Shown here: positions 154-45,539 of the stretch, one piece after another | How the letters are laid out: every line of letters begins with the position of its first letter | Numbering within the stretch: the stretch's first letter is position 1 | Assembly (NCBI RefSeq): GCF_000204055.1 | Contig: NW_006768772.1 | Location: 62,001-126,000 of the forward strand | Direction: 5' to 3' | Source: Melampsora larici-populina 98AG31 | Taxonomy: Eukaryota > Basidiomycota > Pucciniomycetes > Pucciniales > Melampsoraceae | Length of the DNA: 64,000 bases | Made by a program: the position numbers and the translations under genes | Notes under the pieces: generated by a model | Databases searched by the model: none | What the model saw: only the letters and a program-made list of their open reading frames with translations | Told to the model about the DNA's origin: nothing

Positions 154-252
154 TGAAGTGTGGTGGAAAGTGGTAGTGCTTGAACAGCTTGATCAACATT
201 GAAATTTGAGAGACTTGGGCTGCGGGCATGGAATGATACCTTTCAAATTCCA

Positions 253-393
253 TAAGCTTAACTAAGCCCCTCTTCCGCGGCCACGTCCGCGACCTCGAAG
301 AGGGGCTTATCGCGGACTCGCGATTTTTGGCGGAGGACTTCCAAGAATTAAGTACCGTTATGTACTTTCTTCAACTTCACCTCAAAACCTCTC
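253..393 (+). repeat. Left terminal inverted repeat with hairpin tip
   Basis: Pairs with 6873-7013 in reverse complement. Just inside the tip, AAGCCCCTCTTC and GAAGAGGGGCTT form a 12-bp stem around a 21-nt loop that contains its own CGCGG/CCGCG stem. A second short palindrome (CGCGGACTCGCG) follows. The TIR is therefore able to fold on itself as well as pair with its partner. Confidence 0.9.
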
Positions 394-764
394 CACAAAA
401 ATTTCCATGTTTCTCGTGTCTTGTTCTCTACATTTGTCTACATAAGTTGGTACTACTTTCATCAGAAACACACTTGTTTTGCATATTTGGGAGGCATGAC
501 TAAATATGGTCCCTATGTCTTCCTGTAACAGCCTAAGAACGGGTGTACAGGCCATCAATCTGATTTGACCGATTTGACCTCGGGCGAATCCGGACAAATC
601 CTTATCCTGGGTGGAAACTGTCATAAGACATAAAAGTATTATGACCTAATGGCAGTAATCCTTAGCAGTAAGGGTTAGGGGGGTGACGCGTCTGCCGTAC
701 ATAACTTATAAGATGCCACCGTGATCATCGATGCGCATTCACTTGCACTCCAACTAACTACGTC
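394..764. other. Leader region inside the transposon, no gene seen
   Basis: Sequence between the left TIR and the helicase start codon; it presumably holds the helicase promoter. No convincing coding frame was found. Confidence 0.5.
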
Positions 765-3555
765 ATGCTTACTCGCTCTCGGAGTGCTATTATTCCGCCT
801 TTGCCTGATGTTTGCAGAACCCCAAGAACCCCAGCCGCAGCACCAGCAGCCACCAAAACTGACCCTCAAGAGTTCCGGCCAACAATCTCAAAGTCATTGC
901 TCAAGGATGACGATGAAGAACAACGAAAAGTGATACGAGACTTATTTTACAACATATTCAAAATGATTGCTCGAGCCTTGCAAGTCGACTCGACTATGAG
1001 TCTCGTTCGAAAAAAGGATGTTTTTCTCATCGCGAGTACCGGGTATGGCAAGTCTCGAATACCGGAATTATTCTATCTAATGTTCACCAAAGCATGTGCG
1101 CCTATCATCTTGACTTTGAATCCTTTAGACGCGCTTGGAGATAATCAAGTAAGTTTCTCAAATGTGTCTCTGTTTGATGTTCTATAATCATTTTCACTCA
1201 CTATTTATCGGGCATTTGGACAGGTTGAAGAAAAGGCTAGAAATGGTCTGAGTGCTATCAACCTGACACGGGCGTCTTTCACGAAAGCTGTGTATAAAGA
1301 GATTCTTGCAGGAAAATACCAATTTATTTATGTGGTAAGCCCTGAAATTGATCTTGATTGTTTTTGAATCATTCCTGAGCTGACCGGACATGTGCTTAAC
1401 ATAGTCGCCAGAAATTTTCTTGAATAACTCTCAATTCGAACGTCTCTATTTTTCCAAGGGATTCCGTAACCGTTTGGTGCTCAAGGTCGTAGATGAGGCT
1501 CACCTCATCTACTGTTGGGGCCTTGCCTTGTCGGGCAGAATCAAAAATTACCGATGTTTTCAGATCCCGCAAGATCGCACTGCTTTTCGGCCTTCATACG
1601 GGAACCTAGTGGAGCGGTTTCTAGCCACAGAAGCAGTACCAACTCTACTTATGTCAGCAACTTGTCCTCCTCGCAACTTCGACCAAATTGTTGCAAGTCT
1701 CAAAATCACCAGAGATAGCATTGACATTCATCGAAGCGAACTAGTACGACCAGAGATCCGTTTCATCCTGGTCACCCTCAGACACGGATGTTCTTCACAC
1801 TGGGCAAATGTAGTATTTTTCCCAAGTGAAAAATGATTGACCTGAAGGACAAACAAAATTGAAAAAGGTGGAATTCTGCATTCATTCTTCATGTGCATTA
1901 ACACTGCATTTTTCTGCATTGATGCTGCATTTTTTTTCATTAATGGTGCATTAATGGTGCATTTTTATGCATTAACATAGCATTTTTAATCATTTTTGAC
2001 ATTAATTCTAATCATTTTGCATAGCCGAAAAATACTACATCTGTGCAGTGTCAATGGACTTGCTCAAGAAATTCTTTGCACCTAAAACCAACGTGACTGA
2101 TTCCGAGCTTGTACCCACTCTTGTGTACTGTCATACACAAAACGACACCTACTTAGCCCTTAAGGCAATTAATTCAGCCCGCCAAAACCAAATCGATTCG
2201 AGCAATGGCTTGAGTACCTCAGTTCGCCGTTATCACGCCTCAACCTGTCCCATTGATAAGATTCGCCAAGCGCAGGATTTTGGAAAGGGGGTTTTCTCAG
2301 TAATGACCTGTACTAACGCTCTTGGCCTTGGCCAAAACTGGACACGTGTGAGAAGGGTGATTATTATGGGCCAGCTGGATCCGCTCGAGGTGCTGCAAAT
2401 GGCCGGTCGAGGCGGTCGAGACGGGCGACCAGCTGTGGCTTTTTTGATAGTCAATCAATTGTCGCAGACTGACAAGGATTCGCTTTTGGTTTTGCCACAT
2501 CAGAGTCTGCAAGACCACGATCATCATATGCTTGCTATGTCTACCACTGAGGTATGCTTACGGGTGGCTTTTGAGGTCCTACTACGGTGAGTGATATGCT
2601 TTTCACATTCGGTTTATCAGGTCCGTGCTGATGCTGACTCCTTTCGTCAAATAACTTGATGAGTTGTAGGTGTAACTACATACCGGTATCGAAAAATGAC
2701 CAAGCCGTGACGAGTGAAACTCAACGGCAGGCCGAGGCCAATATGGCACCGTGCCGCTGCTTGAACTGTGATTCAAATGCTGCAAATTTTTTCCTGGCTC
2801 AACAGAAAATCTTGACTCAATCAAATTTCACCAAGTTGGTCCTCCAGCAGGACGTGCCACCTGGACAACCCGACTTCAAAGTTGACTCAGAAGATCTCGT
2901 TTGTCAGGACAGTGGGATTCAAACCACATTGAGACCCATAGACGATGACCATCCTCTACGTCAAGATATACGCTGGATTTGATTATTCCTGCGAATTCAA
3001 GCAAATCTGATGTCAATTTTTAATTTAGAATATCCTAAGGGTTCATTCTACACTCTTGATGACCTGTTCTCACCCAACAAAATTTGGAGCCTGTGCATCA
3101 ACTACGACCTTGTTTTAGACGGAATGCATTTGGATGATGTGTTTGGTAGTGAACCTCTTCCAAATACATACACATCAATACATCAAGACATTCGCAAATG
3201 GAAGGCAAGCACGGATTCGATTGCAGTGTTGCACCCTTCGGAAGAAGAGATGATCATGTACAACAAAGCAAAGACCAAAGCGAAGCAAAAAAGTGCCTCC
3301 AATTTCACTAAGGCAAAAGATGTGAGCGAAAAGGACAAAGTGGTATGGTTTCATTACTTTATCTTCTAATTATCATATATGTCTTTTGTAACACTTTGGT
3401 TCATGCGATCTAACCCTGTCATGAAATTAACTACTTTATTGCAGGTAGACCCTACGACTTCAGGAATCACTGGTCCTAAGTCGACCAAGAGAAAACCACC
3501 CCCATATGTCGGTAAGAAGGGCAAATCAGCCAAACAAAGGAACACCACAGTTTAG
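765..3555 (+). CDS. RecQ-like DEAH-box DNA helicase of the transposon (one in-frame TGA)
   Basis: Exon model: 765-1148, 1224-1334, 1405-1825, 2049-2586, 2670-3342, 3445-3555, with all phases consistent. Helicase motifs are in order: Walker A TGYGKS (motif I), VVDEAH (motif II), LLMSAT (motif III), TCTNALGLGQ (motif V) and QMAGRGGRDG (motif VI). After these comes a Cys-rich segment (RCNYIPV, then PCRCLNCD) like the zinc-binding region of RecQ, then a basic C-terminus. RecQ enzymes unwind DNA 3'->5'; here the role is presumably in transposition (inference). The third intron (1826-2048) consists almost wholly of a MITE. A TGA at 2980-2982 interrupts an otherwise open exon, so the gene is either truncated near residue 600 or newly inactivated. 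The last exon overlaps the 3' end of the opposing DUF6589 gene by 30 bp. Confidence 0.85.
1807..2041. mobile_element. MITE inside the helicase gene, apparently serving as an intron
   Basis: Terminal inverted repeats are AATGTAGTATTTTTC (1807-1821) and GAAAAATACTACATC (2027-2041). The inside is AT-rich with many TGCATT motifs and AAAAATGATT/AATCATTTTT near both ends. The same layout occurs in the element at 58049-58221. A donor at 1826 (CCAA|GTGAAA) and an acceptor at 2047-2048 (GTGCAG|TG) remove nearly the whole MITE and restore the helicase frame. Confidence 0.65.
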
Positions 3556-6500
3556 CTCAACCTGACTTTTGGGGTGGATGTCTTCACGATTGCCTTCGGC
3601 ATCAACCACCGTGTCACCCAAACAACCCCATTGATATCGAGATACTTCATTCTTTTTCCGGTCTTTCAAAAAGTTGTCTTGTAATACATTTGTTCCGGTC
3701 AAGACCGTATCGGTAAATTGACTTTTGACAGTCGAGTTTTTGGAAGTGACATATTGATAATTCCAAGAGCGGATAAAGTTAGCGAGGGTTTGTTCTGAAA
3801 GGTTATGGTAGTGGTTTTGAAACACAGGTTTCAGTCCGCTCCGGATTTTTAATTGTTGAATCAGTTGTCGTAGCTAGGAACAAGTTTCAATGTTTCATTA
3901 ATCGATTTGAATCAAGATGTTTATTAAAAATCTCTTGCACACACAAATGTGATGTTAATTGAAATAGCGATCAGCTTTTCAATATCCGTTCCGTTACTCT
4001 ACATAATCACATGATTAATCGATGTGTTAATCAAAACCCCGAAAAAAAAAGACTAACCGTTTGATTGAAATGGTGTTTGAGCCAAAAGTTTTGGTGTTCA
4101 AGCCAGAGATCATTTCCTACAAAATGACCTGGGCGTTGACCTGATGGAATAAGCAAACTATGCAGTATTAGTTTGGCCAAATTAGGAGGTAGGTCCTGCT
4201 CCACAAGCACAAGAAAGCGAGTCAGATGCAATGCATATCGAGGCAAGCCCTTTAACCCATGAGCCATTATTGACCATCGTTTCCACATCAGCATTAGCCT
4301 GCCAATATCACCTGCGTGTGTCGCATCATCAGCTTCCACCACAGTCGCAAAATCACGTATCCGAAGCCTTAAATTATAGCCGACATTGTCCCCTATCTTA
4401 TGACACGCTCTCAAAGAATCCGAGGTGCAAAATTCTTTGTAACATCTATCTATTAGGTCTTGGGCCGCACCCTCCTTGCCTAGGTCCGGAGGAGTCTCGT
4501 ATTTTGACATAGTGTGCCTAGATCATGTTTAAAAACATGTCGTAAGATCAGGTTCTAACTTGGGATCGGGATGCAATCAAGGTGGACTCACCTTAAACAC
4601 GACACCAAAGTTGCGCAGTGAACCGAGTGGCGCGCTTTCATAACAGTTCCAAAATCCATGCTCGACGGCAGTTTAGCATTAGCTCCTTGTAATCCGCCCA
4701 AAGACTGCCATGCCTTCCACGCGCCAGTGTCCTTAGAGTCACGTGTATCACCCCAATGATGCAATAGGATCCCTTGTGCCAGGTTCCACATAATATGGGA
4801 AACCCCAGGGATAGTAAGCACACTGGTAAGGCCTCCTACGTCAGTTCCGGCGGGAGTACGCTTCTTTCGAAGACTTTCGATATTCTGACAAGTGCCAAGG
4901 TCACCTTGAACGATCCTGATCCATTTTGACATTTCTTCGAGCGTCAGCCCGCATTGAGAAGCGATTTCGTCAAAAACTTGTGCAACCCCATCTGCTGAGT
5001 TGTCGGCCGCGTCCATTAGGCTCATCAGAAACAAATGGCGATCATCTACAGGAATCTGGTCTACCGGAGGTGGCCTTGTAGCAATTTTGGGTGAGGGAGT
5101 TGTTCCAGCTTTGAGAATGTATTTGTACATGACCGTGGCTAGCTGACTTTTTAAAGTCGCCTCCCACTGGTTCATATCACTTGCCTTTTCCCTGAAAGTG
5201 TCCAACCGGACCGGGGAATTCCGAGCTTCAGCCAAGGATTGATGGTAGTTTCGAAGGTGAGTGCTCGGACTTTCTTTCGAGATATCTTTATCTAGGTATT
5301 TAGGTAAAAACTGAATATAACCCCATGTGCCATGAAAGAGATGCGACACAGTCTCTACTCGGGTATTGTGAACTCTTTGTAAGATATCAAAGTTATCGAT
5401 GCAGATTATTGGGCATATACTATAAGGCTGGGCCATAAGTGCTCGCAGTGAGGCTTCTCGCTCGCTTTTGAGATGATTTAAAGTTCGTAAAGCTGTATCT
5501 CGAGAACTTGACAGGCCTAAAGTATTCAAATATTGAAAAACTCTATCAGACACTCCAGTTGCAATGAAAGTCAACGTGTTGTGCAACTGAAGCGCATTAT
5601 CTCTATAATTAGACATGTACGAGACCATGCCACATATGGTGGTTGCAACCTAAAACAGTTATATCAAGTCAGTTGAGTAACCGCAATCTTTGTAAAGCAA
5701 GTAAGTGTGGTACTTGCCAGATTTGCTCGGTCTCTTTCTGCCTTAGTTTGGTCTTCTGGAAGATAAAGCATTTCCTCGTCATGTCGGGCTTCCCTCTCAC
5801 CAACAGTTTCAGTCGCCAGGCCGGTTTCAGCATCTGGATCATGTTCTGAATGTTCGTCTTCCAACGTGTCCCAAACGTTGCTGCGGTGAGCAGGCGTCAT
5901 AAGAGCCGCACGATTATTTGATCTAAGCGATAGCTGATGATACATCAGATTCCACAAAAATGGCATTGAGGCCTTTAATTTATCTTCACGCGCGTGTAAT
6001 TGACCTAGCTCAAAGAACTCGTTTGTGATTTTTTGTGAACTATAAAAACATCGAGGTTTGGACATAATTTCTTGTTGAATTTCTTCTTGCGCCTATGAGA
6101 ACCATTATCATTAACTTGTATACCACTGTTAAGAAAGAAGAACACTCACCTCGCTCAAAATAAACTTGCACCATGCAGCCCGGCCTTCCTCACTATTTTG
6201 AGTCAGGTCCTTGATCGCACGCACAATTTGGAAAGTGGAGTTCAAACCTCTTTCGATACCCCAATAACGTCGACTTTCTTTTAAAACGGGGTTATCCGCA
6301 CATAAAAAAGAGTAAAATACCTCTTTAGCAAAGGTCTGCTGACTTTTTGCAGTAGAACATAACTGCACAGCAATGGACTCGATGAAGGGACGCTGGCGGA
6401 TTTTGGTTTCTTGCTCCATGGGAGGTCGCTGGCTCTTTGTGATTTCTTGAGGCTGCAATTTTTGATAGCGGTCACTCTGTAGTTTTGGGAATGGCCGCGC

Positions 6501-6623
6501 GCCAGAATCCCTTCCCAAATTTTGAACAAAATTTTTGTGTCCATTTTGTGGTTCAAAATTTTTGTGTACCACAAAAGCGCGTAACCACAAGAACGCGTAC
6601 TTAACCTCACCGTGCTCAGCCAT
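3526..6623 (-). CDS. DUF6589-family protein, candidate transposase of the 253-7013 element
   Basis: Exon model on the complement: 6623-6150, 6092-5682, 5649-4592, 4517-4058, 3873-3526; phases agree and give about 916 residues. The start is uncertain (6623 or 6419). Family-like landmarks are ICIDNFDILQRV, GDLGTCQNIESLRKKR, then IPGVSHIMWNLAQG with LLHHWGD, and later DLWLEHQNFWLKHHF. This matches my recollection of the DUF6589 pattern GDQLT, P-GLFH, HWG, LEHQN. The conserved Asp residues in DNFD and GDLGT are reasonable candidates for metal-binding catalytic positions, but that is inference. The intron at 5650-5681 would be only 32 nt. The gene faces the helicase and ends inside its last exon. 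No premature stop was seen in the chosen exons. Confidence 0.75.
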
Positions 6624-6872
6624 CCCATACAAAACCGAGCTAAAACCAAGGACAAAACGCAAGGAGGCTTTGCCCACAAATTTGGGGTTTTGTTCCAAAA
6701 AATCATTCCGGGGTATTTTCCAGGGTATTTGACTGGAACATACACAAGCACATCCAATGATGCTTACCACCCAACATGGAAACCGTTCCGCCGAGTAAAG
6801 CACAAGTGTGGGGTATCAAAATATGTACAAAAGCTTTGAGAACAACATATCAGAAGGCTGGCACTTTCTGGC

Positions 6873-7013
6873 CAGAGGTGTTGAGGGAAAGTTGAAAGAA
6901 GTACATAACAGTACTTAATTCTTGGAAGTCCTCCGCGAAAACTCGCGAGTCCGCGGTAAGCCCCTCTTCGAGGTCGCGGACGTGGCCGCGGAAGAGGGGC
7001 TTAGTTAAGCTTA
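6873..7013 (-). repeat. Right terminal inverted repeat with hairpin tip
   Basis: Reverse complement of 253-393 with a handful of substitutions; it includes the same nested hairpin and ends in AAGCTTA at 7013. Confidence 0.9.
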
Positions 7014-7022
7014 CAAATTCCA

Positions 7023-8095: not shown

Positions 8096-10487
8096 ATGTT
8101 CAAGAGACCTAGGATGATCAAGTGGTCAAATTTGCTCTCGCTCACAATACTACTTCTCGTATTTTCTTCTTTGAATCTCTCATCCCAAACCGGGGCCCTC
8201 GATGGCAGTAGCAAGCCATCACGTTCAACTCGACTAGGACGATCAACTTGCCGAGTAACTTTTCATATATTTTTTGTCTCAAAGTCGAGAAATGGAAACT
8301 GATTGTCTGTCGAATATATTGGTTCGAATTTTTCACCTTTTGAATGTGTTATTTATGGTAGGGAAGAGGCTGTCATCCGAAACGTTCACAACCTCAAGTG
8401 TAAGTGGCTGACATTTTCCTACATTCTCCGTCATCTATAATGAGGATCTCATAGTAACTCATCGTGTTGTTTTGTTTGCGATTACGATATAAAACATGTA
8501 GTGATTCAATAAGGCATATTGCTAGGGTCAATAAACACTCAAAAAGAAGTTGCAGATTCAAAGCGCCACTGACAAATCAAAACATGAAGACGAACGCTCA
8601 ACAGAATGTTGATCACATCGAAAAAAGACTAGAGGCCTTCAAGACACAAATGAATGAAGGACGAACTTTGGTCCAAGCCGCCAAGTGGACTAAGGAAATC
8701 TTAAGACAAGGAAATCATTGTGCCCAATCACCACAGGATGTTAATCACATTGAGCAACGATTACAGGCCTTCAAGACACAAATGGAAGGAGGAAGAACTC
8801 CAATTCAAGAAGCCAGATGGACCAAGGCAATCTTACAAAAAGAGAAATATGCTATGAATTCAAAGCAGGATGTTGATCACATTGAAAAACGATTAGAGGC
8901 CTTCAAGGGACAGATGGATGAAGGCAGAACTTTGATTCAAGCAGCTAAGTGGACCAAGGCAATCTTACAACAAGAAAATGATTCTATGAATTTATCACGG
9001 GACCTTGAAGATGACAAGGAGTGTACTGATGAACAACAAGAGGAGGAGCAAGATGAAAAGGAGGACGCTGAAGAGCAGCAGGAAGAGCAGCAGGAAGCTG
9101 AAGAGGAGCAGCAAGAGCAGGAGGCAGCTGAAGCCCAGAAACAAAAGGATCTCGCTGCGGAGCAAAAGACGAAGCAGGAAGCAATCGAAAAACAAAAGCA
9201 AGAGGATCTCAAAAAAGCCAAAGATGCTGAAGACCAAGCAAAGCTGAAGGAAAAGGCAGAAAAGGAAAAGAAAGATCAAGAAAAGAAAGATCAAGAAAAG
9301 AAAAATCAAGAAAAGAAAGATCAAGAAAAGAACGAGCAAGAAAAGAAAGATCAAGCACAACCTTCACAAAAGTTAGAGGAAGTCAAAAAAGGAGAATCGG
9401 TGAAAAACCCTGTTCCTAGTCATCAACTGTCCACCGTCATTGAAGCAACACCTAAACCGAACTCCCAGCCTGTTGTTCAAACTGGATCAACAACTTCAGC
9501 ATTGAGTGGTACTGAGCAAAAACAGTTGAGTGAATCATCCGTCATCGTTTTCGAGGATGATATCTGATAAGGAGATCACATCTATGTATTTATCTCAGCA
9601 CTGCCGATTCTTCGCAATTCTCTTCATTCGAAAAGTATAAACATGGTTCGCACGAAGGTGAATCTGAATCAGTCAGGTCAGTATTTACTAATCAATACCT
9701 TTACATTCAAATTTGATTCTACTCTTCATCTAACTAAAGACATATATGTAAAATAGATGGGTAGCCTTTCATAATTCGATTCGAAATAAGTATTTCACTC
9801 CTCCTGTTCAATGGAGCGAAGACCTTTCTGCTATGGCAAAAAAAGTTAGCGAAACTTGTGTTTTTCAACACTCTCATGGTGATACTGGCGAGGTTAGTTT
9901 TTTGTATCTTTTCACATCCAACTTAAATTCACCAAGAAGAAATTAACAAAGATGACTGATCCACATGAGAAATGTTGATGATATATAGAATATTGCGGCA
10001 GGTGAAATGGATCTTGGACAAGTCGTGCATGATTGGGCATATGGGAATGACGAGAGTTCGGTTTACGATCCTCAAAACCCAATGTACTCGCACTTTACTC
10101 GTCAGTTTTGATCATTTCCCTTGATCGTATCTCTAGTCCTTACAGCTGTCATTGTGTGGAAGCCCGGCAAACATATCATTGCCAATAGATCTGATAATGT
10201 AATTTTTGATTTGTTTTTTTATTCTAGAAATCGTTTGGAAACGTACTACTCATATCGGATGCGCTTATACTGATTGTGAAACAATTAAAGATGTTCCTTG
10301 GACGGGTAATAGCAAGTTTTGGGTTTGTGAATATAATCCGTAAGTCTTGATTGATGATGGTTCTAAAGAGTTTGGGTTGAACTTCATTAATAAAAATGGA
10401 AATTGGAATTTTAGACCTGGAAATTATGCTGGTGAATTTATTGCGAATGTTAACGCTGTAAAAGGAGGAAGTCCATTGACAACTTGA
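8096..10487 (+). CDS. Secreted CAP/PR-1 (SCP/TAPS) domain protein with triple repeat and acidic coiled-coil linker
   Basis: Exon model: 8096-8254, 8362-8399, 8502-9524, 9599-9676, 9757-9892, 9989-10100, 10228-10339, 10415-10487; the total is 577 codons in phase. Residues 1-35 form a signal peptide (basic start, SLTILLLVFSSLNL). Residues 102-233 are three 44-residue repeats, each with HIE(K/Q)R, then AFK-QM, GRT and W-TK-IL. A Glu/Gln/Lys-rich, low-complexity, probably coiled-coil linker follows. The C-terminal CAP domain has WVAFHNSIRNKY, CVFQHSHGDTGEN, the HFTQIVWKRTTHIGCA signature and FWVCEYNPPGNYAGEF, so the usual His/Glu pocket is present. CAP proteins are secreted and often bind lipids or act in host interaction. 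The weakest junction is the intron 9525-9598 joining linker and CAP. If it is not spliced, the upstream part ends at 9567 and the CAP part lacks a start. Confidence 0.8.
8608..9003 (+). repeat. Three in-frame 132-bp tandem repeats in the CAP gene
   Basis: Units at 8608-8739, 8740-8871 and 8872-9003, each encoding 44 residues. Units 1 and 3 carry the dibasic IEKR; unit 2 has IEQR. They diverge in sequence but not in length, which suggests selection on the unit. Confidence 0.85.
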
Positions 10488-25726: not shown

Positions 25727-27707
25727 GAGCATCTCCAACGGTCCTGAATCGCCAAAAGGCGTACAGGCTCGTCTGAAAACATACAGTAAGCTGTATTTTT
25801 TCTTTAAAATGATTTCCCTCCACCGCGCACATGATGCAGGGACTTCCAAGGTCGTGCTCCTGCCAAAAACGCCAAAAGCGCACAATATTCCTTTTAAAAG
25901 TTGACTGATATCTCATTGACTATATACTTGATATGTAATTTCTTTCGATTATCATATCTATCTTTGGACGCATGTGGTATTATTATGTCCTAAACGTCGC
26001 CAATACTGCTTCCTGCATCTTTTGCGAGAGCCCTTCATATATGAAGGTGCTGACATGTGATACCCGGTGTGGTAATCAAAATATGAGACCAATCAAAAAA
26101 TAAAAAAAAATCGAATTTTGAATTACATCAATTATATTACATATAGTTTAATATTTACATCATTTTATCATTCAAACAAACTTATCAAGATAAGTATAAA
26201 CTATTAACAAACAGATTACAAAAAGAAAGAAAGAAAAAAACATAAGAAAAACTCGAAAATAGAGGTATACAGGTTGGAAATGGTTTTTAGGGTAGTAATA
26301 TTAGGTTTATAGGTTTAGTAGGGTTGGAATACGAAAGAGGAGCATTGTTTTAGTCAGCAACAACTTTAATCTTGGTGGTTGATAAGAGAAAATAGAAGTT
26401 ATTAAGGAAATGGGAAAAAGTCGAAATTGGTAAACAAGGGTTTACAGGTAGTTTTACATATGTAACAGTAGTATTAGTAATGAATAAAGTTGCCAAGGGT
26501 GTTTTTAGGGATTTTCACGGTTGGAGATTACTGTGTAATGTTACAGAAGGCAAGAAAGGCTTAGTAAAAGGTGTGAAAAGTGAAGAAAATAGGTGAAAAT
26601 AGTCGAAAATGAAGGTTTTCAGCTGATTACATGTGTCAAATGACGTCAGAACATGATAAGTAATAGCTCATTCGACGCAGAATCATCAAATTCATAATGT
26701 ACAATCTTTAAATCATTAGTAACAGAGGTGTATGACAAAAGTTATAAGGAATCAAAGGATTTGATTACACATCAACAAGATCACAAATCATTAATAACAA
26801 GCAATTACATCATTGAAATGCTGAATCATCATAAGATCAAATCAATATTCATTCTAGAACATTCAGAACACAGCATATACACAGCATATACACAGCATTT
26901 GATCATAAGAATAGAGATTAGTCATGTTTTACTGGTCAAATTAGTAATAAATCTTATCAGATGATGAATAGAAGATCACATTACATCATAATAATGATCA
27001 TAATGGGTTGATGAGGTACTGATGGCGAAATTTAGGAATGTAGAGAGTGGTTGAATCATTGGATCAAAGCTGTTTACCAGCATTTTAGTCATCTTTTGGT
27101 TTTTTAGATGGTAAAGAGGATTTTTTAAGAGCTGTTTACCACTTTAACAATTTGTATTGATGTGTTCATAAACTTGTGTCTTTTGTGCGAAATTATGTTT
27201 CCTTTCTTCTTCATCTCTTACATAGCATTAATCATTTTTATCATTATAAACTTATTAGAGCAGTACTAGGTCACTCAAATCAGCCCTTCATCAGAAGAGA
27301 AATTTGTTTTATGTGCTTTATATGACACTGTCATTCTGGAATAATATCAAAAAGATATTGAGCTTATTTTTCAACATTTTGACTCGACTGGAATAACACT
27401 TTAAATGTGTTGAGCTTATTTCTCTGGTGCTTTTTATCAAGATACTTTTCTCTTATTATCAAAGACCTGGTTATATTTCTCTGTTATCAGGAGACTTTAA
27501 CAACAAAGTCCAGTTTGTTAAAGATTCTCAGAAAGAGCAGTCTCAGACACCTTCTTTAGATCTATTATATCTTCAGATTATCCTCTTTCAAAGCACTGTA
27601 TAGCCCTTGTTGTGCTATAAGTACTACACCGGTATTCCTCAAAACAAAATTCACACACATGGCCAGATGTGAGAAAGCTGGCCACCGTTGGATGGTCGTT
27701 TTTTGAC
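25727..27707. other. Left part of the outer Harbinger derivative, no gene
   Basis: AT-rich sequence. Its 26250-26730 segment pairs as a long inverted repeat with 32996-33500. No supported coding frame. Confidence 0.55.
26250..26730 (+). repeat. Long inverted repeat arm (partner 32996-33500)
   Basis: The stretch with GAAAATAGTCGAAAATGAAGG and TGACGTCA matches the reverse complement of 32996-33500 over several hundred bases at moderate identity. It most likely reflects two related Harbinger copies in opposite orientation and not one foldback element. Confidence 0.6.
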
Positions 27708-28365
27708 TAACTTAACTAAGTCCCTCGATGCTGAGACAGCTGTCAATCAACGAGTTGAATCAGCATGTCTCAGCATGAGGGACTTACATCTAAACTCAGC
27801 TTTTTGGCCTGAGGGGTAAGAAATCCTTTGCAGAGGAAATCTTGTTTTTCTCATTTCCGTGAGCTCACTGAGGAACATTTTACCGCGCTTCATGGGCATA
27901 TGCGCTGGCTCTCGCTGCATAATGTACAACTTGATTGATTGAAATTCCTCGGTTGTTCACCGAGCTACATATCTTTTGATTTTGTCATTTTTGTATGTAG
28001 CTCACTTGTAGCTCACTTGTAGCTTGGTGTTTCATCGAAATAAGTCCTCAACTTAGCAGAGCTACATGTGAGCTACAGGTGAAAATCACAAAATAGTAAC
28101 TTATGTAGCTCAGCAAGCAACCGAGGAATCTCAATGATTTCACTTGTACATTTTGAAGAGGAGGTCGGCGCATAACCCCATGAAGCGCGGTAAAAAGATC
28201 CCCGGTGAGCTCACGGAAAAGGACAAAGAAAGATTTCCTCTGTAAGGAAATCCTTACCTCTCAGGCCAAAAACCGGACATTAGATGTAAGTCCCTCATGC
28301 TGAGACATGCTGATTCAACTTGTTGATTGACAGCTGTCTCAGCATCGAGGGACTTAGTTAAGTTA
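27708..28365. mobile_element. Non-autonomous hairpin-TIR element related to the 253-7013 transposon
   Basis: 658 bp with tip TAACTTAACTAAGTCCCTC at both ends, against TAAGCTTAACTAAGCCCCTC in the large element. As there, each tip folds: AAGTCCCTC plus ATGCTGAGAC pairs with GTCTCAGCAT plus GAGGGACTT. The arms pair for about 300 bp, so the whole unit is a foldback. The flank TTTTTTGAC (27699-27707) recurs at 35789-35797, on the far side of the Harbinger that later entered the right tip, with two extra bases. This fits a 9-10-bp duplication. No gene is present; GTAGCTCACTT repeats lie in the loop. Confidence 0.78.
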
Positions 28366-29145
28366 GAGCATCTCCAACGCGCTTCTGTAAACGTAAGTTT
28401 AACGTAGCCATTTAGACATAAACGTAAGCTGTAATTTACGTTTAGCGGTTTTGCCACAAAAACCAACCTCCAGCGCGCACATGATTTGTCACAACTTGCC
28501 ATGTGTGTGATCCCTTGTTTTCAGCTTCGCGGTTCTCTCGTGTCAATTTCGCCAAATCGTTAGGAAAAATTTGACGTTTGCAGAATGACAGATAAATGAC
28601 AGAGTTGCCGCGTATAGGACGCATGTGGTAAACTTATCCCCACATTCAAGCTCTGATAATCACGCTTCATCCTTCAATCACCATGTGAAGGGCAAAGGCC
28701 ACCACTGATCAATCAAATACTCGATCAATTGGTGGTTGATTGTAGGAAATAAATATATTTTTGAGTCTAACAATTAATTACTATGAGCAATGCAATCTTG
28801 ATAGGACCATGGCGACTCATTAAGACAAAGTTAACACATATAACTTTCTTCAGCAAGGTGTTTGGCTACTTAACAAACCCTCTGGCCGCCTTCTGATCTG
28901 AATGTATTCTATTCCTAGATCCCAATCTTCTTACTTTGACGCACCATCCTTAACCCAAATACAACTTTGTTAACCTTGTCCATATTGTAGTTGTTATCTA
29001 GTATTCCTTTCTTCCTTTGTCTTATTAGGCGCTACAGCGCTACAAGCCCTTCATCATTTCTTTTGTAGTTCTGATCTTATCTGCTACTCCCTTCTGCTAC
29101 AAACGTCTTTATTTCTTTTGCCTTCTCATTTAAGTCCTAGTGGTC
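28366..29145. other. Harbinger left end and promoter region of the Myb-like gene
   Basis: The first about 150 bp are terminal/subterminal sequence shared with the other Harbinger-type ends (ACGTAAGCTGTAATTTACG and CCAGCGCGCACATGAT). The rest has no coding frame. Confidence 0.6.
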
Positions 29146-30865
29146 ATGCAGCATCCCATAACCCAGTCGAGTCCTTCTAGATATGGTTAGTGATTGATAC
29201 TCTGACGTACATAATGCTATAATTATATTCTAAATCTACTACAATCGCCTTTCTAGATTCAACTCGTAGCCCTCCAATTGATAATCAAAACGCCGGTCAT
29301 CCGTACCACAACTTTAGGAATGGTGAGTTTCTTTCGTTTCGAGTATGAAGATATAACATATATTAAATAATCCATCTTCCACAGGTGATTACCGCAGCCC
29401 TCATAAGGATGCTCATGGTGGCCGATGGCCTGCATATCACGCCGGTCACAACGTTAATGAAGGCAGGCGCGGTTCAGCCGGGAATGGTGAGTCTCTTTGT
29501 ACCTTGTCAAGGTCAACAGAGGACCTTAGGAACTGATTCTTGTCCAAAATGGTAGTCTCGGAAGGTGATCTCCCTGGCAGTTTATTAGCCCTTCACTTTG
29601 GTTCAGAATCTCGTGATGCATCTGTTGGTCCCCTTACTCAGCAAAGTAATAATTACAACAACCGTGGTGGCTCTAGCACCTTATTTCGTGTCGACCAATC
29701 TGCTTCTCCTCATCGCCATGTCAAAAACTATGACAGTGGGGACTCTTTATCTCCTTTACGAAGAGATTCGTTGGGTCTTCAATTCAGCAATCAACATTTC
29801 AACCGTGACCCGTCGATTAATTCCAGTAATCCGGTGTCAACCTTTTCGAATTCTCAATCTTCTAACTTAAGCTCTGTCCTCTCCAATCGCTCTTTTCACG
29901 ATCGAGAGTCCTCTGTGGTTTCTTCAACTCCGAGTTCGAGTCATCCGGTGTCAACCTATTCCAATTCTCAATCTTCTAACTTCAGCTCTGTCCTGTCCAA
30001 ACGATCTTATAATGATCGAGAGTCTTCTTCTGTCATTTCTTCGACTCAAAGTTCCAAAAGCCAATCTGCAGGGCGGGGCCCTAGCTTCAACAAGGCCTCG
30101 CTTGAACAGCTATGTAAATCTTGGATCAACGTCTCTGAAGATGCAGTTGTCGGGACGGATCAGAAGGGGACTACGTTTTGGGTCAAAATTACCGAAGATT
30201 TCAACAGCCGAATGCCTCCTGCGAACGCGCGCACCCTCAAATCCCTCACTTCCCGTTGGGCCAGTCTCAATGCAGCTATGGCGAAGTACGCTGGCTGCTT
30301 TCAACAAGTCAAGATGTTACGGGAAAGCGGGAAAAGCGCTTTGGATCAGGTGGAGGATGCTTTAGTGATGTACCATTCGGATGTCGGAACCGAGTTCAAG
30401 GACATGGCATGTTATAACATAGTCAAGAACTCACCTAAGTGGAAGACTAATTCGACCGTTCTCGACCATTGTGGAACAGGGGGAGTGGATGACGACTTTG
30501 CCGTACCTCACGTGATGGCAGCCTTGGGCAATACGACTGCGGGTTCATCTTCTTCAACTTCAGCTACAGACGTTAGTAGATTACCTTCAATGGATCGCCC
30601 CGAAGGTAACAAAAAGGCTAAGCGAAACCGAAACTCTAAGGCAGATGACGTGGAGCCTCAATTTATTGCTAATCAAACCGCGGGCATTCGTATCACTGAA
30701 AGAATTGCTGAACAAGGCGAGAGGCAAACTACAGCTCTCGAGAAGATGCTTGAGCTGGCTGTACTCATGTCAGATACCTCTAAGGTTGATGAAAGAACCC
30801 GAGCAGGTCTAGAGGCTGCAAAAGAGATGATCAATAGCAAGAACGAAGCTCAACGCGGTGTTTGA
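29146..30865 (+). CDS. Harbinger Myb/SANT-like DNA-binding protein
   Basis: Exon model: 29146-29185, 29257-29322, 29385-29486, 29556-30865; 505 residues. Residues 1 to about 240 are Ser/Asn-rich and disordered, with two near-identical segments (PVSTFSNSQSSNLSSVLS and PVSTYSNSQSSNFSSVLS). From about residue 245 comes a trihelix/Myb-like domain: FNKASLEQLCKSW, GTDQKGTTFWVKITEDFN, then RTLKSLTSRWASLNAAMAKY. A C-terminal helical part (ERIAEQGERQTTALEKMLEL) could mediate dimerisation. In PIF/Harbinger elements this second protein binds the element ends and brings the transposase to the nucleus and DNA. The three 5' exons are all joined in phase 1. No defect seen. Confidence 0.85.
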
Positions 30866-31174
30866 TTTAGATCCGTCACAGTAGTTATGTGTACTCTTGT
30901 TTCTTTATTTCCATATCCTTCTTTGGTCGTTGTTGTTATGAAAGATCTTGCTGCGAAGATCTTTGCAAGCGTGTTCATTTTTTGTGTGTGCTGCGTTTAT
31001 CTCTTGTTTTCCTTTATAGCTCGTGTTTAAATTCATAGTCATTCGTTTATCTCCTCATTATAGTTACCTAGTACATATTTCAATACAATTGTTCATAGTT
31101 GTTTGTTGCGTATATTGCAATCTATGTATATTGTTGTTCACATAACCTCGTACTCTCACCTACACAGAGCTATC

Positions 31175-31876
31175 ATGACTTCCTCAGGTTCCTCCAATAT
31201 TAGCACTGGCTTAGACGGCTCTGGGTCGGACCGTAGTTCACCTGATGGTATGTGATATGCGTTGATTTGCCAGTCACTTGAGTCTTACTAATGCAGAATC
31301 AAGCAGTCATGTGGCTCGGCACGACCTTTGGTTCTGGTTTATCGCCTCATGGTTTCCGCCTCCGTCAGTCTTTTTTCGACATCCTGGGCCTACCACCTGC
31401 TTTGCCAACGCCCGAAGCCGTGAATCATGTGGATCCACGACTCCGAACCAATGGCACGCCTGAAAACCACGGTGAGCAAGCATAAATATCATTTAAACCT
31501 ACATCTAACTATCTAACATACAACCATACTAGGTATAGGCGAAAGATCCCCCAGTCCAGCTCGAGAAGTCAACATAAGTCCTCGAGCGCAGAGGGAAATT
31601 GAGAGACAGGAAGAATACAATCGCACTCGCAAGTCTCGAGAGGCCCTTCGCCGTATCATCAAGACAGTTCAAGATAAGCGCCGTGAGGAATTTCGCGTAC
31701 TTCGGCAGGCTCTCTACCAAATCTACCATTACGACGGACCCTTCCTCAAGAAACCCGGTGAGAAAGCGGCGGCTGGTCGATTGATACGTACTGGAGGACT
31801 AGCTTCGGAATTTGTCAATGTTTTTGATGACCAAGCAAAATGGGAATATCTTCAAATGAGAGTAGATGCTATTTAG
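31175..31876 (+). CDS. Small protein of unknown function encoded within the Harbinger element
   Basis: Proposed exons: 31175-31247, 31283-31471, 31533-31876; 201 residues. The first intron would be only 35 nt with acceptor TTGAG. If that is wrong there is a one-base frame break here. The protein begins MTSSGSSNISTG, passes through AVMWLGTTFGSGLSPHGFRL, and ends in an Arg/Glu-rich helical stretch (EIERQEEYNRTRKSREALRR) followed by LRQALYQIYHYDGPFLKKPG and YLQMRVDAI. I recognise no domain. It lies on the same strand as the Myb-like gene and between it and the transposase. Harbinger elements normally carry only two genes. Confidence 0.6.
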
Positions 31877-33912
31877 TCGCCATTGCGAACTTTGTGTTGA
31901 TTCTTTCTTTCTTTCTCTTGTCCTGCGAGTGTTTAATCACATGTACTACATATGATCATATTCATCCAATGTGTACATATCATTTTTTTCATGCCTCAGT
32001 AAGTCAAAGAATGGCTGCCACGCGAGTTGTCACTTTGTACAAAGAAATATATTTCTGTTTCAATATGCACAAAAAATTTGAACCAAGAAAACATCAAACG
32101 GTGTAGTATTTAAAGCTCAACAAGAGCTTTACAACACCTAAGAAGGGATAATCTACTACGTGTAATATAGTAGAAGTTGCCTAAAGACTGCCTTCTTCAA
32201 AGAAACCAGCACAAGGGCACTTGCTGACCACTTTGTGATAACAGAGAAAAGGATAAAAGGCACCAGAGAAATAAAGCAATACTGTTGTTAAGTATTATTC
32301 CCAGATTTTAAGCGCAAAAAAGTCACACACTATGTTTATTACTAGCAATACTGTTGTAAGTATTATTCCCAATTAGACTTGTAGTCTTTAACACACGTAA
32401 ATAAATTTCTCCTTGCTTTTGAAGGGGCGGATTTAAGTGATCTTAGTACAAATATAGTAAATAAATGATGATTTATAACACTACAACAAAAGGTATAAGA
32501 TGCAGAAAAGGGCGCTACAATCCCAAAATCATCAAGGAGTACTTATATCCACATGTAACAATCTTTACAACAGTCAACAGCCTCAAAAACCAATCAAATC
32601 CGCCTAAATAACCCTAAAAACCATGTAATGACGCAATGTAATGATCTTGTTACTAATGTATGATGTAATTTTCACAGCCAAAATTGATCAATGACGCAAT
32701 GATGTAATGTACAGCACTTCTTAAGATGAATACAGGTGATTTTTTCCTTGTAAACTAGCTGAAACCCAATTTTTGAGATTACGAATTTTTTCAGATGTGC
32801 TCCAATTTTTGATTACTAAAGTGCATCTTGTAGCCCACGTGTTACTAATCATTTCTGACACCTATAAGACCTACTTCTGATGAGTGATGAGTAAGATATT
32901 GAGTTGTGAAGTTAAGGTTTTTGGTGTTACATGTGTCTTGTGACTGTAAATTCGAGATTCACACCAATTTCTTATTTCCCTTATAATTTTTTACATACAC
33001 CTCCGTTACTAATGATTCAAAGGTTGTACATTATGTAATCCACTCTTCTGCGTTGAATGAGCCATCTACCAACTTATTCTGACGTCATTTGACATATGTA
33101 ATTAGCTGAAAACCTCCATTTTCGACGATTTTCACCTATTTTCTTCACTTTTCACAGCTGCTACTCCCTTTTCCTTGCTCATGTAATATGACATCATCTT
33201 CTATAACCTTAAAAATCCCGGAAAATCCTCTTGGAAACCTTAAATTCCATCACTACCACCATTACATATGTAAACTACACGCCTAACCCTTGTTTACCAA
33301 CTTCGAAAAAGTACCTTTCTGCTAATAACCTCTGTTTCCCCTTATCAACCTTGAATATTAAAATTGTTCCTGTATAATAAACTGTTTTTCTTTCATATTC
33401 TAACCTTATAAAACCCATAACTTAATTATAAATAAGCTAAAAACCATTTTCCAACTTTTACACCTATATTTTCGAATTTTTCTTATCTTTTCTTTTTCTG
33501 TCTTTTTGTAATAACTTTGTAAGTAAACTATGTTGATCTTAATAATAATTTTGAAATAAGATGACATAATAATGAGCTAATAAGTATACATAAGCCTCTA
33601 AGAGCTTCAATTGATCTGAAAACCTGAATTTCGAATTCTCTGCTATATTGAAGTTTGCTAATAAACTGGTAAAGTAAAGATGATTAATTTTTTTGATTAA
33701 TATCATAAATAGATCACCACAACGGATACGGATACGAAAAAGGATACAAACCAAGACACAAACTGAGACAAACTTGAAACCAACGAGAGAAACAATCAAA
33801 TGAATGAGAGGGATTGGGAGTGGTAAGGAACATTAAAATAACCACAAATAGTTTGTATAACTAGGTCGATTAACAAACACGTAACAAATCCACACCGTCC
33901 ACCATCTATCTA
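31877..33912. other. Harbinger intergenic region between convergent genes, no gene
   Basis: AT-rich. It holds the second arm (32996-33500) of the long inverted repeat shared with 26250-26730, and several TGATGTAATG-type repeats near 32600-32720. No supported coding sequence. Confidence 0.55.
32996..33500 (-). repeat. Long inverted repeat arm (partner 26250-26730)
   Basis: Reverse-complement match including CCATTTTCGACGATTTTCACC and CTGACGTCATTTGACATATG. Confidence 0.6.
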
Positions 33913-44566: not shown

Positions 44567-45345
44567 AGTCTCCTGAAATCATCATGAACAGTGATCTCTT
44601 TGAAAGTATTTACTTTTCAAGAAAATTTTATGACTGTCTCATCCCCAAAGTTGTTGACAAAGCTCATTTGATTTACACATGGGGACTTGCAATGAGTGGA
44701 AACCACAAATACCAGGGGGCTCTGACCAAATCTCGGGACCAAGCTACATTTCAATCATCCTATGGCAACTTAATAAACCAATTCCTTGATACAGATCCGG
44801 TTGCCACTCTTCTCATGTCAGTAACTTGCACACCAAAAGCTTTTCATCATATTCTCTCCAGCCTCAAGACAAACAAAGATGACATTGATCATGGAGAGAT
44901 CACTAGACCTGAGATATGATTCATTTGATTGACCTTTTCTCACAGAAAGAACTCTGGGAAAGACCTCTCAAAGTTCTTCCCAAGGAAAGCTGATGTACCA
45001 GGATGTACCCAACTCTGAGGTATCTCCCATATTGGTCTACTGTCACACTCAATACGGAACTTTCTTGGCTCTAGATGACATCAAAAAGGCATGTGGTAAT
45101 CTGGATGATAGTGGTAATTGCATGATCACTTTTTTACGTTACTACCAATACAACACTGGAACTCAAGGAAAAAGTACACAAGCAAAAAAGTTTACAGAGA
45201 GACCATATTCCTGGCATGACTTGACACTTGGGATGGTTCAAGATTGGTCTTGAGTATGGCATGTGATTTTGATAGGCAAAGCCACTTCAAATGAGTTTTT
45301 GCATATGGCTGGTTGCGCTGGAAGAGGAGGAAGAGTAGCAGTCAC
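44567..45345 (+). pseudogene. RecQ-like helicase relic (second family member)
   Basis: Begins SPEIIMNSDLFESIYFSRKF, matching SPEIFLNNSQFERLYFSKGF of the 765-3555 helicase. It continues VVDKAHLIYTWGLAMSG (DEAH changed to DKAH), LLMSVTC (SAT changed to SVT) and ITRPEI, then broken frames containing SKFFPRK, PILVYCHTQYGTFLAL and finally LHMAGCAGRGGR, a damaged motif VI. Several stops are present. No MITE occurs at the place where the 765-3555 copy has one. No TIRs of the 253-7013 type were found around it. Confidence 0.85.
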
Positions 45346-45539
45346 ATTCTTGTGGACACAGCCACTTCAATGGAGGCTTATTTGACACAGATATCTTAAA
45401 CCCTTTGATCAAATCCAAGATTATTGGATGCATGCATGCATGTAATAGCAATCACCCCAGTGTGAGGGTTGTTTTGAGTGTTAATTTTGATTTTTCTCAA
45501 TGTCCAACACATTATCAAATGCTTGTACCAACGCTGCCA
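45346..45539. other. Tail of the helicase relic, nothing further recognisable
   Basis: Carries (GCAT)-type repeats at about 45429-45442 and no coding frame. Confidence 0.4.

Follow-up and report, generated by a model that had tools for sequence, protein, structure and literature searches.

Introduction

Mutator-like elements (MULEs) have long terminal inverted repeats (TIRs) and duplicate 9–11 bp of their target, P and hAT elements duplicate 8 bp and are not known to carry a helicase, and Kolobok elements duplicate TTAA. AcademH, of the Academ superfamily, was reportedly described by Kojima in 2020 (Mob DNA 11:15). According to the available portions of two papers, AcademH is the helicase-encoding lineage of Academ, occurs in animals and fungi and encodes the helicase besides a DDD/E transposase (PMC10045372, PMC10799480). 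These portions also give its target site duplication (TSD) as 9 or 10 bp, a length tied to the helicase (PMC10045372), and place the lineage in Basidiomycota, Ascomycota and Mucoromycota (PMC10799480). Here we analyze an element in a 64,000-nt stretch of Melampsora larici-populina 98AG31 (GCF_000204055.1, contig NW_006768772.1, positions 62,001–126,000; hereafter the window), in which long TIRs enclose a gene for a RecQ-like helicase and a convergent gene of the DUF6589 type. With a probability of roughly 0.9, we read this locus as a DNA transposon of the DDE kind, with DUF6589 as transposase and the helicase as its own accessory enzyme.

Results and Discussion

The first-pass annotation of the window had described inverted repeats of about 141 bp with hairpin tips, an exact 9-bp flanking duplication and two convergent multi-exon genes between the repeats, and all of these features were confirmed (Table 1). 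The terminal arms align without gaps over 201 nt with 85% complementarity, and the outermost 140 bp of the two TIRs are 94% identical. Random pairs of positions in the window agree in a 9-mer at a frequency of about 2e-5. The helicase gene on the plus strand and the DUF6589 gene on the minus strand occupy the interior, and, judged by reading frames, their 3′ ends appear to overlap slightly. A subterminal inverted repeat of 9–13 bp recurs in 31 of the 32 tips of 16 elements, and between families its two arms change in step (TAAGCCCCTCTTC/GAAGAGGGGCTTA, TAAGCCCCTCTCC/GGAGAGGGGCTTA, TAAGTCCCCTC/GAGGGGACTTA). Such repeats may fold into a DNA hairpin, or they may be a transposase binding site present twice in facing orientation.

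Table 1. Coordinates of the element and of related features (window positions unless a contig is named).
Feature	Position	Strand	Remarks
Complete element	253..7013		6761 bp; copy on contig C3 is 6505 bp, without the insert
Left TSD	244..252		CAAATTCCA
Right TSD	7014..7022		CAAATTCCA
Left TIR	253..453	+	tip TAAGCTTAACTAAGCCCC
Right TIR	6813..7013	-	
Left tip hairpin / inverted subterminal motif	263..309		13-bp arms 263-275 and 297-309
Right tip hairpin / inverted subterminal motif	6957..7003		13-bp arms, mirror image of left
RecQ-like helicase gene	765..3555	+	several exons; interrupted in window copy
Helicase exons	765-1148, 1224-1334, 1405 onward	+	provisional, GT..AG sites by eye
Helicase motif GYGKS	1041-1055	+	
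Helicase motif VDEAH	1489-1503	+	
Helicase motif QMAGRGGRDGR	2396-2428	+	
256 extra bp in helicase exon	1798..2053		insert 1798-2050 with CACTG..CAGTG ends, plus second TCA 2051-2053
DUF6589 gene	3529..6623	-	five exons, 904 amino acids open
DUF6589 exons	6150-6815 (open stretch, start inside), 5718-6092, 4592-5649, 4058-4517, 3523-3873	-	
Probable catalytic residues	D368 (5395-5397), D533 (4900-4902), E776 (4097-4099)	-	from conservation and predicted models of relatives
Non-autonomous type II member	27707..28366		660 bp, 308-nt arms, tip CTAACTTAACTAAGTCCC, no TSD
Full-length type I members with exact 9-bp TSD	window (C8), C3, C13, C50, C23:980789, C28, C9, C27, C57, C23:274784, C63:67360		

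Mobility of the family was examined across the whole assembly (98.3 Mb, 243 contigs). Matches to the TIR, a DUF6589 exon and a helicase exon numbered at least 41, 116 and 150, respectively; these counts are lower bounds, part of the candidates having been scored. Type I members have the tip TAAGCTTAAC(A)TAAGCCCC and type II members CTAACTTAACTAAGTCCC, a pattern that in its exact form gave 181 tips, while the reversed control gave none. A 9-bp duplication flanks 35 of the 38 members with both ends readable, and no other length was found at the given tips. Exact duplications of this length occur at 11 full-length type I members, at all 14 short copies (607 or 680 bp) showing both tips, at the type II member C17:223352 (GCTCTCACC, its tip read as CTAAC) and at nine of ten members of a further type II set. 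For C57 and C17:223352 the script had returned 5 and 7 bp from overextended tips, and the true tip gives 9. For three more type I members (C16, C29 and C82) the comparison covered 7 nt of one flank, and these match in each. No target duplication was found at C7:2005960, at C17:1340333 or at the 660-bp copy in the window, which has exactly the same tip as two autonomous members of type II. The count leaves out three more short loci showing one tip, C4:2105081 and C14:701830, for which the stretch examined showed no ends, and C7:605107, the right end of which lies beyond that stretch.

At 11 type I loci, and at five or more of type II, both genes lie between matching tips with exact 9-bp duplications that vary by locus. 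Copies at least 99.4% identical occupy different sites, and eleven 607-bp copies share a mean identity of 98% (lowest pair 92%). Related empty sites were found for the short copy on C82, at C31:226496-226634 and at C17:321742-321898, and in both of them ATGCATAGC stands once and uninterrupted. The other six of the seven joined-flank constructs, including that of the window copy, returned none. Boundaries, duplications and empty sites together bear out that the element is mobile.

Some members depart from the usual size. Type I tips with an exact 9-bp duplication stand 21 kb apart at G000:C63:67360-88549, a locus that probably holds large nested insertions. Exact 9-bp duplications also flank the type II tips of G000:C8:895658-898295 (2.6 kb) and C18:1161839-1166601 (4.8 kb).

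The two genes travel together. With pieces merged, a helicase match lies within 6 kb of 101 of 115 DUF6589 genes, 99 of the 101 pairs being convergent; among 200 random placements, scored from point to point with a limit of 7 kb, the mean was 2.4 and the maximum 7. Viewed from the other side, DUF6589 neighbors 104 of the 144 helicase matches, and 100 of these pairs are convergent. Protein distance matrices of DUF6589 and helicase correlate with r = 0.97 (18 pairs, permutation p = 0.0001), and the coefficient is again 0.97 over 12 family representatives. These matrices replaced a measure based on identity to the window copy alone, which gave rho = 0.43 over 78 pairs and no correlation among the 66 distant ones; the 78 pairs were drawn from 82 of 150 helicase rows, of which four were partnerless, and C3:2551676 represents a mispairing of nested elements. 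The ratio of non-synonymous to synonymous substitutions (dN/dS) was calculated for one exon per gene in five pairs. One of these was saturated; the other four gave 0.05–0.12, and in several of them dS exceeds 1. Since dN/dS is low and the distances correlate, we conclude that both genes have been inherited together and kept functional. Co-occurrence of the two genes inside common boundaries with 9-bp duplications, which the first-pass annotation had put forward for checking, is thus the predominant state in this genome. We encountered neither differing boundaries nor a general lack of linkage between the genes, and some copies are unpaired or reduced. Scans of viral-contig and genome-contig collections outside this genome found no relatives.

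The plus-strand gene contains motifs that we take to be Walker A, DEAH and motif VI. It matches the Pfam model Helicase_C with an E value of 8e-9 and RecQ models at about 1e-8, far under the curated NCBIfam cut-offs. The reading frame L079, a longer homologue from another part of the genome, gave weak matches in the PDB to RecQ4, RecQ and WRN (E values 8e-4 to 8e-3). The helicase of the window copy is broken because 256 extra base pairs, overlooked in the first-pass annotation, sit in its exon. They are absent from the copy on C3, which is 99.4% identical to the window element. Judged by its ends, the insert may be a CACTA-like miniature inverted-repeat transposable element. At 45002-45445 the window also contains the decayed remains of a helicase from this family, with 39% identity and three stop codons, and no DUF6589 match lies nearby among the matches listed.

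Two exons of the minus-strand gene match DUF6589 (PF20231) with E values of 3e-27 and 3e-29, in agreement with its first assignment; its introns were placed by hand, and the second has a GC donor. Named homologues, among the matches listed, come mainly from Puccinia and some from Melampsora. The DUF6589 proteins listed also include some of the Agaricomycetes Grifola and Pleurotus. Predicted models of DUF6589 relatives adopt an RNase H-like, DDE-transposase-like fold with a helical insertion and conserved D, D and E residues, and thus contain the nuclease-like core that had been looked for. Plain Foldseek returned no significant match for either of the two models of relatives. A second-look structural aligner ranked transposases first throughout, its own caution applying. 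The best alignments were to the P element and hAT (Hermes), with ISCth4 also among the matches. In the relative P0002, E630 (conserved in 181 of 221 sequences) was considered as the catalytic glutamate and given up for E709 after the alignment ends. These models support the assignment of DUF6589 to transposases of the DDE kind, with a predicted RNase H-like core bearing D, D and E.

If so, DUF6589 would bind the TIRs and excise the element. Its RNase H-like core, carrying a large helical insertion like those of the P element and hAT transposases, would supply the D-D-E site that cleaves the ends. The ends would then be joined to target cuts staggered by 9 bp, and short, internally deleted copies could be mobilized in trans. 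We infer catalysis by DUF6589 and a cut-and-paste rather than a copy-out route, and suggest that the helicase has been retained for aiding transposition, most likely in that it opens the hairpin-prone ends or helps to repair the donor gap. A parallel is known from Drosophila, where P-element gaps are repaired with the help of Blm, a RecQ helicase that the host must provide. The present element encodes its helicase itself and offers a natural case in which end-opening and gap-repair roles can be tested against each other.

Other origins of this locus fit the data less well. A host pair of helicase and DUF6589 genes, spread by segmental duplication and with TIRs from elsewhere, would agree with the names of those DUF6589 relatives that carry one, all hypothetical, uncharacterized or DUF6589 proteins among the matches listed; yet it is contradicted by matching tips with differing duplications around both genes, by near-identical copies at different sites and by the empty sites, and we regard it as the least credible explanation. 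Hardly more credible is a KolobokH element, a Kolobok transposon with a RecQ helicase that is confined to fungi. The likeness lies in a RecQ helicase carried by a fungal DDD/E transposon, and the accessible part of the source also reports a red-alga Kolobok family with a helicase on the opposite strand (PMC9587614). Against this, 35 members here have diverse 9-bp duplications and not TTAA, and the helicase, which lies downstream of the transposase domain in KolobokH as that part describes it, is a separate convergent gene in our element.

The long TIRs and the 9-bp duplication would also suit a Mutator-like element whose transposase has diverged and which has captured a helicase, and ISCth4, from the MULE-related IS256 family, is among the fold matches. 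However, no Pfam transposase model, for MULEs or otherwise, matches the DUF6589 exons or proteins, and about 100 loci have the helicase next to its partner, with which it co-varies, so a chance capture does not explain it; such an origin is improbable. P element and hAT share with the models the RNase H-like core with helical insertion and conserved D, D, E, but the duplication here is 9 bp instead of 8, and a search of the PDB with the DUF6589 profile matched neither, giving one irrelevant match only (E value 0.93).

The transposon thus read, with DUF6589 as transposase, probably belongs to AcademH, its closest published home, a placement made from the descriptions of that lineage. Like AcademH, the element has TIRs, encodes a helicase (RecQ-like, with scores below the NCBIfam cut-offs) and makes duplications within the 9 or 10 bp range, each exactly 9 bp here. 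It differs in abundance, with about 100 gene pairs in this genome compared to a lineage called low-copy in the portion available (PMC10799480). The first-pass annotation had proposed an undescribed superfamily and had not considered Academ; this proposal is not supported, since the combination of helicase, 9- or 10-bp TSD and fungal hosts is already published for AcademH, as far as the excerpts go. We consider it doubtful that the element forms a wholly undescribed superfamily with no Academ transposase descent, AcademH-like only in helicase and duplication length. DUF6589, its fold most like those of P element and hAT, would then be the transposase of its own superfamily, with a RecQ-type helicase and hairpin-forming ends. 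In favor of this alternative, P element and hAT give the best fold alignments, helicase and DUF6589 are separate convergent genes, the tips have potential hairpins, the name DUF6589 was not found in the literature searched, and the AcademH descriptions, in the portions available, make no mention of it. If it were true, a eukaryotic element of the cut-and-paste type, bringing a dedicated helicase for end opening or gap repair, would have spread in rusts and mushrooms, where databases conceal it under the labels "domain of unknown function" and "RecQ helicase".

The transposase reading proposes for the large fungal family PF20231, of unknown function so far, a role open to testing, that of a DDE transposase, and ties it to RecQ-like genes. 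In its accessible passages, one study (PMC9370660) interprets the RecQ helicases of rusts as an "effector family" that is enriched and variable, and links helicases to aggressive repair. Since 104 of 144 helicase matches in this genome lie beside DUF6589, counts of RecQ helicases may need checking for transposon genes. Matches to the helicase of our element are mostly in transposons where ends are readable. In a 2025 library of rust transposable elements, 27.5% of the consensus sequences are unclassified, according to the part of the paper available (PMC12210899).

Two further features of the window were observed. Three tandem repeats of 132 nt (8601-8996) lie within an open reading frame of 367 amino acids (8464-9567) that has no Pfam match. 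Nested long inverted repeats at 26271-33456 (arms of 172 and 214 nt) surround an open reading frame with a NAM-associated domain (29540-30865), possibly as a PIF/Harbinger-like element, and the 660-bp type II copy lies inside these repeats.
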